Positions 1-8,143 of a DNA stretch of 8,143 bases are shown here, piece after piece. The stretch comes from Thermococci archaeon. Lineage in GTDB: Archaea; Hadarchaeota; B88-G9. The position numbers and the translations under genes are program-made. How positions within the stretch are numbered: the first letter of the stretch is position 1; every line of letters starts with the position of its first letter. The notes below the pieces were generated by a model. The model did no database searches. It was not told the origin of the DNA and saw only the letters and a list, made by a program, of their open reading frames with translations. The stretch lies in NCBI GenBank assembly GCA_003660555.1, contig QMUK01000059.1, positions 1 through 8,143 of the forward strand, given 5' to 3'.

Positions 1-567
1 CTAGAAAGTCGTTGACGCCGAGACAGAGGCTTTTCTCTACGATCTCCTCTAGAACTGAACCGTTCCCTCTCCAAAGAAGGAGGTTAACTCCAACCTCAAA
101 TCTTCTACCGAGAAACTTATCTAGCACATTGCACATTTCCGGATCTCTAATGCTGACTCTAACCTCGCTGACGTACCCCTCAAGCCGAGCTATCTGCTCT
201 TCGGAGGCGGCTGTTCCGTTCGTCGTTACTGAAATGTCCAGCCCCGTATTATTCCATGTCCACTCCGCAATCTCTTGAAGGTATGGATACATGAATGGCT
301 CTCCGCCGCCGAAGGCAACGCCAGAATGCCCCAAGAATCGAGGAACCCGATGAGCCGCTTCAGCTCGTCTAGCTGCCATTCTTCCGTCTTGTTTGGAGAT
401 GCAGATGCGTAGCAGAACCAGCAGTTCTGGTTGCATCTTGAAGTCAGGGCTATCTGGGCGTAAAGCGGCTTAATCCATGACTTCGATCTTATCTGCGGCG
501 TGAAAACGCATAGCCCAGAGTTTCTTTCATGGATGAAGAGGCCTTCAGGCGTCAGAACCCTTCGCAT
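1..567 (-). pseudogene. Radical SAM protein, frameshifted and cut by the left window edge
   Basis: The first part (567 down to about 321) reads as the N-terminus of a radical SAM enzyme: TSRCNQNCWFCYA holds the CxxxCxxC motif (C45, C49, C52) that binds the 4Fe-4S cluster used to cleave S-adenosylmethionine. Near 321-322 the frame breaks. One added base (CTGGCG to CTGGGCG) restores LGVAFGGGEPF, the SAM-binding GGEP motif, then TTNGT, and the frame stays open to base 1 without a stop. The family fold therefore continues past the window. The ATG at 567 has only a distant GAGGTGG (18 nt upstream). In-frame codons before it (RWKIIGIG) look coding, so the true start may be a non-standard codon further upstream. 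Substrate is unknown; SPASM-type or peptide-modifying enzymes are possible. The single lesion could be a real mutation or an assembly error. The radical SAM identity is secure. Confidence 0.85.
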
Positions 568-3053: not shown

Positions 3054-3502
3054 CTATAGAAAGCTTTCCAGAAAATTCTTGAAGGAAATCGTTTTCATCC
3101 ATACGTCGGGATAGTCCTCGTCGTTTGAAAGGAGAGGCTTGTCCAAGTTCTTTGCGGCTGCGGCCGGCTAGCATCAGCAGATGTACACTGGGAGGAGCCA
3201 ACGACAAATCAGGCAATCTCTTAATGAACTCTTTTAGATCAGATTCCTCTATAATCCTCTCTTTCATCCCCAGAAGCCTCCTCTTTTTTAGTAAGTGCAC
3301 ACAGAAACTTTGCGAATGGATTGAATTCTGAACTGTAATCCAAAAGAAACTCCTTGACAAGTTTAAGATTCTCTAATGTTTTCGGAACATCCCAGACGAC
3401 TTAGAGAGGCGGATATCCCGCACATGCATAGCGACTCGCAAATCTTCTTTCGTATTCCCGGTCTCGGTATGCTCTAATAATGGTTGAGGCTTTAACCCTC
3501 AT
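3054..3502 (-). pseudogene. Decayed gene of unknown function, one stop and two frameshifts
   Basis: The ATG at 3502 overlaps the stop of the upstream gene as ATGA, a typical translational-coupling arrangement. It reads MRVKASTIIRAYRDREYERR and continues to YPPL, where an in-frame TAA (3401-3403) interrupts it. The same frame then carries on as VVWDVPKTLENLKLVKEF. Near 3255-3270 coding character moves to a second frame (IIEESDLKEFIKRLPDLSL, PPSVHLLMLAGRSR). Near 3155-3165, in a GC-rich repetitive stretch, it moves to a third (AKNLDKPLLSNDEDYPDVW), ending at TAG 3054-3056. Put together this would be a soluble protein of about 148 residues. I do not recognise the family. Three lesions in 450 bases make a real pseudogene more likely than sequencing error, though unpolished indels could explain the two shifts. 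The 112-codon open frame 3022-3360 captures only the middle piece in its true frame. Confidence 0.6.
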
Positions 3503-3723
3503 TCTTCAGAAGCCTCCTCCCACCACTCATTGACGGCGTCCAGCCTCACGCCCCATCCCCAGTCAAACAAAAGCCAGTAATGTTCGCCTTCCTGTTCTAT
3601 CCGAAGGACTTCCCCGCATATCTCATCGAATCTCCTCCCCAAACGCTCGGCATTTTCTGGCGTATGCTTCACTTTTACGCAGATGTATCGGCCAACCAAG
3701 CCTTTAGCCTCTTCAGGATCCAT
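3499..3723 (-). CDS. Small hypothetical protein, 74 aa
   Basis: I do not recognise this protein. It is acidic and aromatic-rich at its C-terminus (WLLFDWGWGVRLDAVNEWW), with a pattern of short beta strands (YICVKVKH, GEVLRIEQ, HYWLLFDW) that would suit a small SH3-like barrel; that fold is only an inference. The start at 3723 is preferred because AGGAGGG (3730-3736) sits 6 nt before it; an in-frame ATG at 3747 lacks such a site. A TTAAAAAT box at 3787-3794 could be its promoter. Its stop overlaps the start of the decayed gene downstream (ATGA), so the two were once an operon, and it may have lost its partner. Confidence 0.7.
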   Translation of the reverse strand: MDPEEAKGLVGRYICVKVKHTPENAERLGRRFDEICGEVLRIEQEGEHYWLLFDWGWGVRLDAVNEWWEEASEE

Positions 3724-3786
3724 TTGGAGCCCTCCTTTTCTCCGCAACCTTCCAGCGCTTCGCCTCCAAAAACTAGAATTATGAGG

Positions 3787-3794
3787 ATTTTTAA
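3787..3794 (-). promoter_or_regulatory. Putative archaeal TATA box for the 74-aa gene
   Basis: On the minus strand the bases read TTAAAAAT, about 64 nt before the ATG at 3723. Transcription starting about 25 bp downstream would leave a leader of roughly 40 nt containing the AGGAGGG site. No other AT-rich box is seen between the two divergent genes in this direction. The call rests on sequence resemblance and position alone. Confidence 0.35.
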
Positions 3795-3850
3795 GTCGTC
3801 TTCAAGGCCTCAAGCGGTTGGAGAGTGCATGTCCCGTTTGGAACGTTAAG

Positions 3851-3858
3851 TTTATATA
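3851..3858 (+). promoter_or_regulatory. Archaeal TATA box of the RHH regulator gene
   Basis: TTTATATA is a close match to the archaeal TATA consensus, preceded by purine-containing AACGTTAAG that could serve as a BRE. Its centre lies about 37 nt before the ATG at 3892. Initiation 25 or so bases downstream would fall near 3880, giving a leader of about 10-12 nt that just includes a short GGTG. The three-half-site operator starts at its last base. Confidence 0.7.
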
Positions 3859-3885
3859 GTTGGATACCCAACTTTAAAGTTGGGT
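3858..3885 (+). promoter_or_regulatory. Putative operator: three AGTTGG half-sites at 10-bp spacing
   Basis: AGTTGG occurs at 3858-3863, its reverse complement CCAACT at 3868-3873, and AGTTGG again at 3878-3883. The starts are exactly 10 bp apart, so all three face the same side of the helix. The second and third copies sit in a perfect 20-bp palindrome, acccaactttaaagttgggt (3866-3885). The array fills the space between the TATA box and the start codon of a ribbon-helix-helix protein. Bound protein would cover the expected transcription start. RHH proteins bind as dimers to short inverted or tandem half-sites and commonly repress their own genes, so autoregulation is the natural reading. Confidence 0.7.
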
Positions 3886-3891
3886 GTTTAA

Positions 3892-4485
3892 ATGAAGACG
3901 ACGCTCCAGATCAATGATGTGTTGCTTGAAAGATTTCAGGAGGCCGTTCTTAGGGAGCATGGTAAACTAAAAGGCGCGCAGAGCGAGGCTCTTGAAGAAG
4001 CCGTGAAGCTCTGGCTTGCGTTTAAGGGTGTAAAGAGGTACTTCGCAATAATCGATTCCAAAAGTGCCAAAATAGCGGATTTAGAACATGTTAAGAAGAA
4101 TATGATTAATGCTTTAAGGGAGAGAAAGGTTCAGAGGGCTGAAACTCTAGTTTTCCCGCTCTTTGATTCCTTCGACAGGGAAGACCTGACTGGTTTGCTT
4201 GAGGCCGTTCAGTCAGTTCTAGGGAAGCCTACATCTTCAGACGGGTCAATTGAGGATTTGGAGCATAGCGGCGATTGGGCCGTTTACTCCTGGAGAATAA
4301 GGGAGGGTGAGCATGGATACAGCATGAAGTTCGTGATGAGAATGAGTTTCAATCACGTAGGCTACAGTAGGATCTGGTCAAGGGAGATCTTGAATGTCCG
4401 AGATATCCAAGAGAAGCTGTCAGAGAAGGATCTATCGTATGAGATTAAACCCTCTGAGCCGACCTATCAGCCCATTCAGGAATGA
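3892..4485 (+). CDS. Ribbon-helix-helix (CopG/Arc-type) regulator with unknown C-terminal domain
   Basis: Residues 1-43 fit the ribbon-helix-helix DNA-binding fold. A short strand, KTTLQIN, would insert in the major groove. It is followed by helix one (DVLLERFQEAVLREHG), the turn GKLKGAQ, and helix two (SEALEEAVKLWLAFKG). Residues 45-197 are not recognised. They hold a helical part (ADLEHVKKNMINALRERKVQ), a stretch resembling a small alpha/beta domain, and strands such as WAVYSWRI and YSMKFVMRMSF near 139-160. RHH proteins are often only 45-100 aa, so the extra 150 residues suggest a ligand-binding or partner-binding domain. The ATG at 3892 follows the TATA box and operator closely. The gene converges on the minus-strand cluster and overlaps its last gene by 41 bp. 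It probably represses itself; control of the divergent 74-aa gene is possible but not shown. Confidence 0.75.
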   Translation: MKTTLQINDVLLERFQEAVLREHGKLKGAQSEALEEAVKLWLAFKGVKRYFAIIDSKSAKIADLEHVKKNMINALRERKVQRAETLVFPLFDSFDREDLTGLLEAVQSVLGKPTSSDGSIEDLEHSGDWAVYSWRIREGEHGYSMKFVMRMSFNHVGYSRIWSREILNVRDIQEKLSEKDLSYEIKPSEPTYQPIQE

Positions 4486-5059
4486 CCGGATGGGGCAAGC
4501 CATAGAGGATCCTCCCCTTCTCCTTCTCTCTTCTAGCCAATTCTCCGATCTCAACCATCATTTGATCGCGGTATCTCACTCCATGCTTCGGAGGGGTCAT
4601 CCCTCCATAGCTGACGAGCAAGATAGCGTCGAGATCTGAGACTTCATCGAGGAGTTTACCCAGCAGCTCAATCTCTGATGCGTAAAGGTCGCCCACGAAC
4701 AAGACGAGAAGATCTCTGGTCGCCAAGAACCACCAGAACGCATGAAGGCGTCGCACCCTGATCCCGATGAGCCTCGAGAGCGTTCTTGAACCAACCGGCG
4801 TGACCTTTACCCTCTTAATTACGGCTGATGATCCCTCGCTGATATAGATGCTTGAATACGTCTTTCTCTTAGCTCTCATTCTAGGCACATAATTGTCAGA
4901 ATATATCAGAGGCTCTGGAAACCTAAAGCTACTCTTCAAAGGATCATGATCTACATCTTCATGGCTTACGAGAGTAAATCGAGTCGGAAACCCGAAGATC
5001 CACCTGTCAAACTGAATACTTCCAATCAGCCTGTCAAGATTATCCCTACCCGCCTTCAA
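4445..5059 (-). CDS. Possible metallo-beta-lactamase-fold protein
   Basis: Translation from TTG 5059 gives 204 aa. Features resembling an MBL-fold metallohydrolase, in order, are FTLVSHEDVDHDP (29-40; H33, D35, D37, H38, an HxDxDH form of the usual HxHxDH), H106 in RLHAFWW, VGDL (122-125, with D124 as possible bridging ligand), and ILLVSYGG followed by KHG (H159). The family hydrolyses esters, phosphodiesters or other substrates at one or two metals, but no substrate is implied. The N-terminus is shorter than usual for the fold. No ATG or GTG start exists. The frame is open only six codons upstream (LKGDWR) to the TAA that ends the preceding VWA-like gene in the same frame. Initiation at TTG after termination, readthrough, or a lost start are all possible. 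Its last 41 bp overlap the convergent regulator gene. It could also be a degenerate, inactive member. Confidence 0.5.
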   Translation of the reverse strand: MKAGRDNLDRLIGSIQFDRWIFGFPTRFTLVSHEDVDHDPLKSSFRFPEPLIYSDNYVPRMRAKRKTYSSIYISEGSSAVIKRVKVTPVGSRTLSRLIGIRVRRLHAFWWFLATRDLLVLFVGDLYASEIELLGKLLDEVSDLDAILLVSYGGMTPPKHGVRYRDQMMVEIGELARREKEKGRILYGLPHPVIPEWADRSAQRV

Positions 5060-5077: not shown

Positions 5078-6319
5078 TTATTTATGGGAGTTGAAGTTGA
5101 TATGCGCTGTTGTGAAGCCGGGTGCGACGACTGGCTTATGCGTGTATCCTATCATTGCGAATCCAGCCTTCGACGAGACCCTTCTGAACCATTCTTGAGT
5201 CTCGCTTTTCTCCACATCGAATATGTCGCCGTCAGTAAGCATTATAACAGCGTCGCCGCTGTTCATGAATCTGTAAACCTTCTCTAAGACGAGTTTGCAT
5301 ACTGTCCCGCCGCCGCCCTTCATCATCGGCGCAACCCTCCTAGCAACCTGCTGCGGACTTTCAGCCCTCAAAACCTCGTAGGCCTCAGCGTCCCAAGCGA
5401 TTGCCCTCAACGAAGCCCTCCTAGCCTCATGCTTGACGATGCCCAAGAAATATCTCAGCTCATCCTCTCCGATGCTCCCTGAAGTGTCGATTAGACACCA
5501 TACCGTGTATCGGTAGTTTATTGGTCCTGGTAGATCGTCAGAGCGGCGGTTTGGATATGCGAAGCTAGCGTCGAACTTCGAGCTGTTCCTCAAGCCGAAG
5601 CGAACCGTCACCTGCCATGGAGGCCTAACCTCGAGAACCTCGTCGATTATCCTTTCAAGCCCAGCCGGTAATGTGCCGGCTTGCTTCGCGAATGCCTTAG
5701 CCTTCTCGCACAGCCTCTTCCAAGCCTCTCTGAGATCCTCCCTATTTTTCGGCTCAGTCACGCTTCTATCTCCTTCCTGAATCACTTCGCCCTCCACGAT
5801 TCCCGGGATTAGGTCGTCGCCTAATCCTCCATCCCCACACTGCCCGCCCTTCCCTCCATATTTCTCGAGAACCCTAACGATCTCCTCCGTGCTCATCTTC
5901 TCCAAGTCTTCAACCCGAAGCCCCGTGACCGTTGCCAAAGTGTTAAGTGTGACGATGCTCCCACAGTCATAGTCGACTCCTGAAACCCTCGCACTTGATA
6001 TTCCATGATTCACCTTTCCGTCAGCCACGAAGTTATACAGGTCATGGTCGAAGCCCTTCATTCTGAAGGGATGACATAGAACGGCGTGGAGGCACTCGTG
6101 AATCGCCACGAACCTTTTAGCCTCGACCTTCAGGCTGCTCCACCAAGAGGGGTTGATGGCTAATGTTCCACGCTCGTCCACGCCGGCCGTCTCGATGATC
6201 TCGGTCGCCACGATCCTCGCGTAGCTGAGCGGGATCACGACGAACGGGAAGTAGCGGCCGCAGAAGATCCTGATGTCGCGGAGATCCATCCTAATATTCT
6301 CAAGAACCTTCGATGACAT
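5078..6319 (-). CDS. VWA-like putative metallopeptidase (DUF2201/COG3864 type)
   Basis: This 413-aa soluble protein has two parts. The N-terminal part (about 1-245) has AIHECLHAVLCHPFR (72-86), a zincin-like HExxH (H74, E75, H78) with a further H83, as in the VWA-like putative metallopeptidases; residues 151-190 are a Gly-rich, acidic linker. The C-terminal part (about 270-395) is VWA-like: LIDTSGS (276-282) gives the MIDAS DxSxS, GGGGT (335-339) the threonine, and LTDGD (361-365) the aspartate. Homologues usually lie beside a MoxR-type AAA+ ATPase and are thought to work with it in metal-dependent assembly or maturation; no MoxR gene is in this window, though one could be beyond the right edge. 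AGGAGGG lies directly before the ATG at 6319, with only 1-2 bases of spacing. It sits second to last in the minus-strand run. Peptidase activity is unproven for the family. Confidence 0.85.
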   Translation of the reverse strand: MSSKVLENIRMDLRDIRIFCGRYFPFVVIPLSYARIVATEIIETAGVDERGTLAINPSWWSSLKVEAKRFVAIHECLHAVLCHPFRMKGFDHDLYNFVADGKVNHGISSARVSGVDYDCGSIVTLNTLATVTGLRVEDLEKMSTEEIVRVLEKYGGKGGQCGDGGLGDDLIPGIVEGEVIQEGDRSVTEPKNREDLREAWKRLCEKAKAFAKQAGTLPAGLERIIDEVLEVRPPWQVTVRFGLRNSSKFDASFAYPNRRSDDLPGPINYRYTVWCLIDTSGSIGEDELRYFLGIVKHEARRASLRAIAWDAEAYEVLRAESPQQVARRVAPMMKGGGGTVCKLVLEKVYRFMNSGDAVIMLTDGDIFDVEKSETQEWFRRVSSKAGFAMIGYTHKPVVAPGFTTAHINFNSHK

Positions 6320-7708: not shown

Positions 7709-8143
7709 TTAGAGGAGGGCTCTTCCAGTCAATTCTAGAACCTTCAATATCTTCGGGTTGTCCTTCACGGCCATGAAGACATCTCTGCGTCTTTGCTTCT
7801 TCAGGAAGGCGAAGAATGCACTGATGAACTCGCGGTCATCGACCCCGGCGACATACAGCAGAAAGCACTTAGACTTCTTGATGTTTCTTGTTGTTTTGTT
7901 TATTGCTTCGGCGACGGTCATGGCAGCCAAGTATTTCTGCTCAATATTGAAGTCCTTGATGACTTGCGGATGCTTTATGAGTTTTTGGAAGCTTGGAACC
8001 CTATTGCTTAGGAACGCCATCAAAGATTCGCCGACACGACCTAATTTGCCCTTAGCAATACTGGCACGTAGCTCCTCCCTCTTTAATTTAGCGAATGCAC
8101 GTGCCACATACGCCCAGCCCCGCGCTGTTGCGGGAGGCCCGTA
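7709..8143 (-). CDS. Hypothetical protein, 5' end beyond the window
   Basis: The frame is open from the stop at 7709 to the window edge. Codons upstream of the first possible start (GTG 8107) still look coding (ATARGWAYVARAF) and no ribosome-binding site precedes that GTG, so the gene probably begins outside. The visible 144 or so residues are basic and mostly helical (FAKLKREELRASIAKGKLG, then SFQKLIKHPQVIKDFN). They end with an alternation of hydrophobic strands and helices (KCFLLYVAGV, REFISAFFAFLKKQRRR). No known motif is visible. It lies 28 nt before the 70-aa gene and heads the visible part of the cluster. Confidence 0.6.
   Translation of the reverse strand, partial: YGPPATARGWAYVARAFAKLKREELRASIAKGKLGRVGESLMAFLSNRVPSFQKLIKHPQVIKDFNIEQKYLAAMTVAEAINKTTRNIKKSKCFLLYVAGVDDREFISAFFAFLKKQRRRDVFMAVKDNPKILKVLELTGRALL

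Follow-up and report, generated by a model that had tools for sequence, protein, structure and literature searches.

A putative autorepression operator of three phased half-sites in the promoter of an archaeal ribbon-helix-helix gene

SvtR (SIRV1), F55 (SSV1) and AvtR (AFV6) are archaeal-virus ribbon-helix-helix (RHH) proteins whose repeated sites overlap transcription start sites or promoter elements; for SvtR and F55, the targets include the promoter of the gene that encodes the repressor (PMC5569661). The locus described here, located in a contig of 8143 bases that was analysed in full (the window), shares with these repressors an RHH protein, repeated sites over a promoter and, probably, targeting of the own gene. 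F55 sites are tandem ATAGATAGAGT and those of SvtR and AvtR are imperfect inverted repeats, whereas the array in the window consists of a perfect hexad alternating at 10 bp. In contrast to the viral proteins, the protein encoded in the window carries an extra C-terminal part of ~150 aa, and no further target was found in the genome bin.

AmrZ of Pseudomonas aeruginosa (Arc/Mnt type) is bound as one dimer per inverted half-site, with an A/T-rich linker and a narrowed minor groove in between, and represses its own gene (PMC3325190). Inverted half-sites with an A/T-rich linker are present in the window as well. AmrZ differs in its GGC half-sites, 5-bp linker and two half-sites per site, and no sequence relationship between AmrZ and the window protein was found. 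RelB of E. coli binds 6-bp repeats of relO on one helix face, with autorepression and spacing-dependent cooperativity (PMC2812701). A hexad array on one helix face is common to both loci; relO, however, comprises four hexads, two per dimer and 6 bp apart, and RelB is an antitoxin with a toxin partner, while no toxin-like neighbour of the gene at 3892 was recognised in the window. Omega/ParB of pSM19035 binds as one RHH dimer per repeat to 7–10 repeats of mixed orientation over promoters, and already binds tightly to three repeats (PMC9499535). Mixed-orientation repeats over a promoter are again shared, but the omega/ParB repeats are contiguous, 7 bp long, number 7–10 per site and also form a segregation site, compared with three repeats at a 10-bp period in the window.

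Array geometry and promoter setting

Half-sites were located by direct reading of the sequence. Half-site 1 (AGTTGG, plus strand) occupies 3858..3863, half-site 2 (CCAACT on the plus strand, AGTTGG on the minus strand) 3868..3873, and half-site 3 (AGTTGG, plus strand) 3878..3883. The last two are contained in the perfect 20-bp palindrome ACCCAACTTTAAAGTTGGGT (3866..3885), which a palindrome scan returned as the sole perfect palindrome of at least 14 bp in the window. The exact 10-bp steps (3858, 3868 and 3878), the palindrome and the position of the array between a TATA box (3851–3858) and the start codon (ATG, 3892) had all been described in an earlier sequence-only reading and were borne out. 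From upstream to downstream, the elements are GTTAAG, TTTATATA (3851–3858), AGTTGG, ATAC, CCAACT, TTAA, AGTTGG, GTGTTTAA and ATG, with the first A of half-site 1 common to the TATA box. A fourth half-site may exist in degenerate form as TTAAAT (3888..3893, minus strand), which lies in phase with the array and across the start codon. It matches CCAACT at 3 of 6 positions, as would about 1 in 6 hexamers by chance; since this is close to the chance level, three is the defensible number of half-sites.

Chance rates were estimated from 40 Mb of simulated sequence with the dinucleotide composition of the window. AGTTGG by itself was not enriched (5 occurrences in the window versus 3.6 expected); the rarity lies in the arrangement. 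Alternating triples of perfect hexamers with a period of 8–12 bp occurred 0.0026 times per 8143-base window or 5e-5 times per 150-bp upstream region; for a period of 10 bp only, the rate was 0.0006 per window. Perfect 20-bp palindromes occurred 0.010 times per window. In ~620 kb of real DNA, other alternating triples were present only at two loci, which had themselves been retrieved by that pattern.

The TATA box TTTATATA (3851..3858, plus strand) was the single TTWWWAWA match on both strands of 3701–3900. It is preceded by a BRE-like element, GTTAAG (3845..3850, plus strand), which fits the BRE consensus RNWAAW except for the last base. The genome bin encodes TBP, which identifies the organism as an archaeon. 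A second TBP-like match in the bin (C32:6008-6396, minus strand) is broken by TGA codons and is either a decayed copy or an assembly error. At the usual distance from the TATA box, transcription would start near 3879–3882, inside half-site 3. The predicted leader should comprise ~10–13 nt, with a Shine-Dalgarno-like GGTG (3883..3886, plus strand; in and just after half-site 3) ahead of the ATG as the presumed ribosome-binding site. The array would span both this predicted start and the presumed ribosome-binding site. A divergent small ORF (3499–3747) is more than 100 bp away from the array. Judged from the TATA box and the placement of the predicted start, the array covers the core promoter of the 3892 gene and nothing else. 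Scans for tRNA genes, Rfam families and sigma-70 promoters yielded nothing relevant.

The RHH protein and its contig

The gene at 3892..4485 (plus strand) encodes a protein of 197 aa, with an N-terminal RHH domain (approximately residues 2–46) and a C-terminal part of ~150 aa for which no family was recognised. Searches with the 197-aa protein against Pfam, NCBIfam, PHROGs and PADLOC gave no convincing direct match. The RHH domain, with which the gene had been said to begin, was recovered through relatives. The first ~48 residues are 33–45% identical to small archaeal RHH proteins in pairwise matches, and the N-terminus is 28–44% identical to such proteins in the alignment. One small archaeal relative matches Pfam RHH_6 at 1.5e-5, and a profile of relatives searched against the PDB matched the RHH chain 2k6l at 8e-4 and SvtR (2kel) at 0.015. 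By sequence, the gene is thus classified as encoding an RHH (CopG/Arc/MetJ-type) domain with a recognisable N-terminal beta-strand and two helices.

An AlphaFold model of residues 1–53 contained two helices (pLDDT 80). This monomer model presented a helical hairpin only, and its fold search matched unspecific helical hairpins; formation of the ribbon requires the dimer. The full-length prediction was unusable (pLDDT 37). A single relative, L003, matched past the RHH domain (37% identity over residues 9–97), and beyond it no recognisable relative of the ~150 C-terminal residues was found. For L003 itself, the 10 genomes of its family contained no relative. The upstream sequence of L003, GTTAACA-N13-TGTTAAC, was considered as a comparable operator and rejected, as it scored within the range of shuffled sequences.

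The window represents a whole contig, and its tetranucleotide signature was compared with sampled stretches of the genome bin. Correlation with the bin was r ~0.05–0.07, versus 0.29–0.70 for other parts of the bin among themselves. The window resembles a contig from another genome of the phylum (L046; tetranucleotide r = 0.52); radical-SAM, DUF2201/VWA and ATPase genes are common to both contigs, with identities of 58–67%. The RHH gene had no match in the stretch of L046 that was read. The radical-SAM gene (2–567, minus strand) is present as two overlapping frames in the window and as a single frame of 301 aa in L046 (3089–3994); the split is attributed to a frameshift or sequencing error. Further genes downstream of the RHH gene are an ORF without family hit (4445–5059, minus strand), a DUF2201 metallopeptidase/VWA protein (5078–6319, minus strand; family match) and an ATPase (7709–8143, minus strand), whose close L046 relative has a match to the phage ATPase family phrog_1297. 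Matches to phage families were obtained for both the DUF2201 protein and the ATPase. Distant DUF2201 relatives are found in Achromobacter, Thermus and other phages. Given the signature mismatch with the bin, the likeness to L046 and the matches to phage families, the RHH gene may reside on a mobile element, or the contig may have been binned by mistake. A type II toxin-antitoxin operon with an RHH antitoxin was also considered and rejected, as the genes next downstream are on the opposite strand and no co-directional adjacent toxin was recognised.

Further copies of the array and arrays at other archaeal RHH genes

Orthologues of the 197-aa protein were searched for with back-translated patterns in 84,980 species genomes, and in IMG/VR, INPHARED phage records, PLSDB plasmids and 394 archaeal genomes; none was found. 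A single exact CCAACTN4AGTTGG was found in the 1.3-Mb genome bin, and 27 further genomes of the phylum contained none. Two copies with one mismatch in the bin were discarded as further sites, being located inside coding frames, and so was the sole other near-complete array, whose three mismatches correspond to the chance level. The genome scan for further arrays that had been proposed to reveal a regulon therefore detected no second array in the 1.3-Mb bin, and no regulon was visible. Being unique in the bin, the site goes with the 3892 gene only. In IMG/VR, the triple array was present at two loci, both representing one sequence and neither with an RHH gene nearby. The palindrome was present at 43 places, mostly within reading frames, and none of these adjoined an RHH gene.

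For a survey of archaeal RHH promoters, 70 archaeal RHH matches (L095–L164) were obtained by profile search and the 75 bp before their start codons were extracted. Similar upstream sequences, ambiguous sequences and the window itself were left out, so that 60 upstream sequences were kept; dinucleotide shuffles served as baseline. The 60 sequences contained 91 direct hexamer pairings (45 in shuffles) and 129 inverted pairings (67 in shuffles). Direct repeats peaked at 8 bp (16 sequences versus 1.9 in shuffles) and 16 bp (15 versus 2.1), inverted repeats at 10 bp (7 versus 2.2) and 21 bp (10 versus 1.7). Control regions, which were less AT-rich, had about half the direct and a third to a quarter of the inverted pairings of the RHH set; the best-matched control (TATA-like starts), with n = 12 only, was nearer to the values of the RHH promoters. 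Direct periods of 8 and 16 bp dominate, and inverted repeats at 10 bp are a minority form; of their seven cases, several are situated at the far upstream end of the region and not in the interval from TATA box to start. Upstream of another archaeal RHH gene (L155, genome G138), AATGCC-ATAC-GGCATT reproduces the hexad-N4-inverted-hexad geometry of the window. The enrichment of hexamer pairs in the 60 promoters supports the view that phased operator arrays are usual in the promoters of archaeal RHH genes, and that self-control via such arrays may be the norm for these genes. Among archaeal RHH promoters, the array at 3858–3883 would then be a typical yet unusually perfect case.

Autorepression and alternative readings

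The promoter of the 3892 gene itself bears repeated half-sites that share a helical face, namely three hexads with a 10-bp period between TATA box and start codon. In the proposed complex, each AGTTGG hexad would receive, in its major groove, the beta-ribbon of a single RHH dimer. With a 10-bp period, one groove after the other would be occupied on the same side of the helix; adjacent dimers could then touch and bind cooperatively, and the AT-rich TTAA linker could provide a narrow minor groove between dimers. When filled, the array would begin at the downstream end of the TATA box, span the predicted transcription start (~3879–3882) and reach as far as the ribosome-binding site, and assembly of TBP, TFB and RNA polymerase would be blocked by occlusion. 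We consider it probable (roughly 0.7) that the array is the operator by which the RHH protein of 3892–4485 represses its own gene in this manner, with one dimer per hexad. This reading, which had been put forward from the sequence, is favoured by the RHH domain identified via relatives, the placement of the array on the gene's own core promoter, its absence elsewhere in the genome bin and the enrichment of arrays in RHH promoters; the autorepression part of the claim was retained as the most likely interpretation, with binding as its inferred component. The accompanying statement that three half-sites are unusual did not hold as a general rule, as omega/ParB of pSM19035 binds fragments of three and of four repeats equally well (PMC9499535) and an odd number of half-sites is thus not unusual for RHH proteins.

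The alternative that survives best is that a different regulator, namely an HTH dimer from the host or borne on an element, uses the array as its operator and controls the 3892 gene, while the RHH protein acts elsewhere. A perfect 20-bp palindrome is also a usual type of HTH-dimer footprint. We nevertheless regard this reading as unlikely: a general regulator would not be expected to have a site that is unique in the genome bin, three hexads alternating at one-turn intervals are more readily explained by successive RHH dimers than by a single HTH dimer, and RHH genes commonly have arrays in their own promoters. More speculative, and in our estimation improbable, is an extension of the autorepression reading in which the RHH protein is a mobile-element regulator, its ~150-aa C-terminal part acts as a ligand sensor or as a dimer–dimer bridge setting the 10-bp period, and the three-dimer array constitutes a graded switch of the element.

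Control at the level of translation would require that 3860–3891 acts as an RNA element, i.e. a 14-bp hairpin in which the GGUG ribosome-binding site is held beside the AUG. The predicted fold is stable (-17.1 kcal/mol, z -2.5) and G-U pairs extend the pairing past the palindrome. However, the TATA box at 3851–3858 implies a transcription start at ~3879–3882, inside the hairpin, which would leave the 5' arm untranscribed; upstream, 3701–3900 contained no second good TATA box, and the element had no Rfam match. Because the predicted start falls inside the hairpin, RNA-hairpin control is considered very unlikely. The least probable explanation is a chance palindrome, or a site of another DNA function (recombination, nicking or segregation) that happens to fall here: 20-bp palindromes are expected ~0.01 times per window and many windows were read, but what requires explanation is three phased hexads (0.003 per window, 5e-5 per 150-bp promoter) rather than a palindrome alone, placed exactly between the TATA box and the ATG of an RHH gene.

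Autorepression by the RHH protein hence remains the preferred reading, and the array itself is likely a well-formed, ordinary example of RHH self-repression. It provides a sharply defined, easily testable candidate operator for an archaeal RHH protein. If arrays in own promoters are as common as the survey suggests, the binding motifs of many uncharacterised archaeal RHH proteins could be read from their own promoters.
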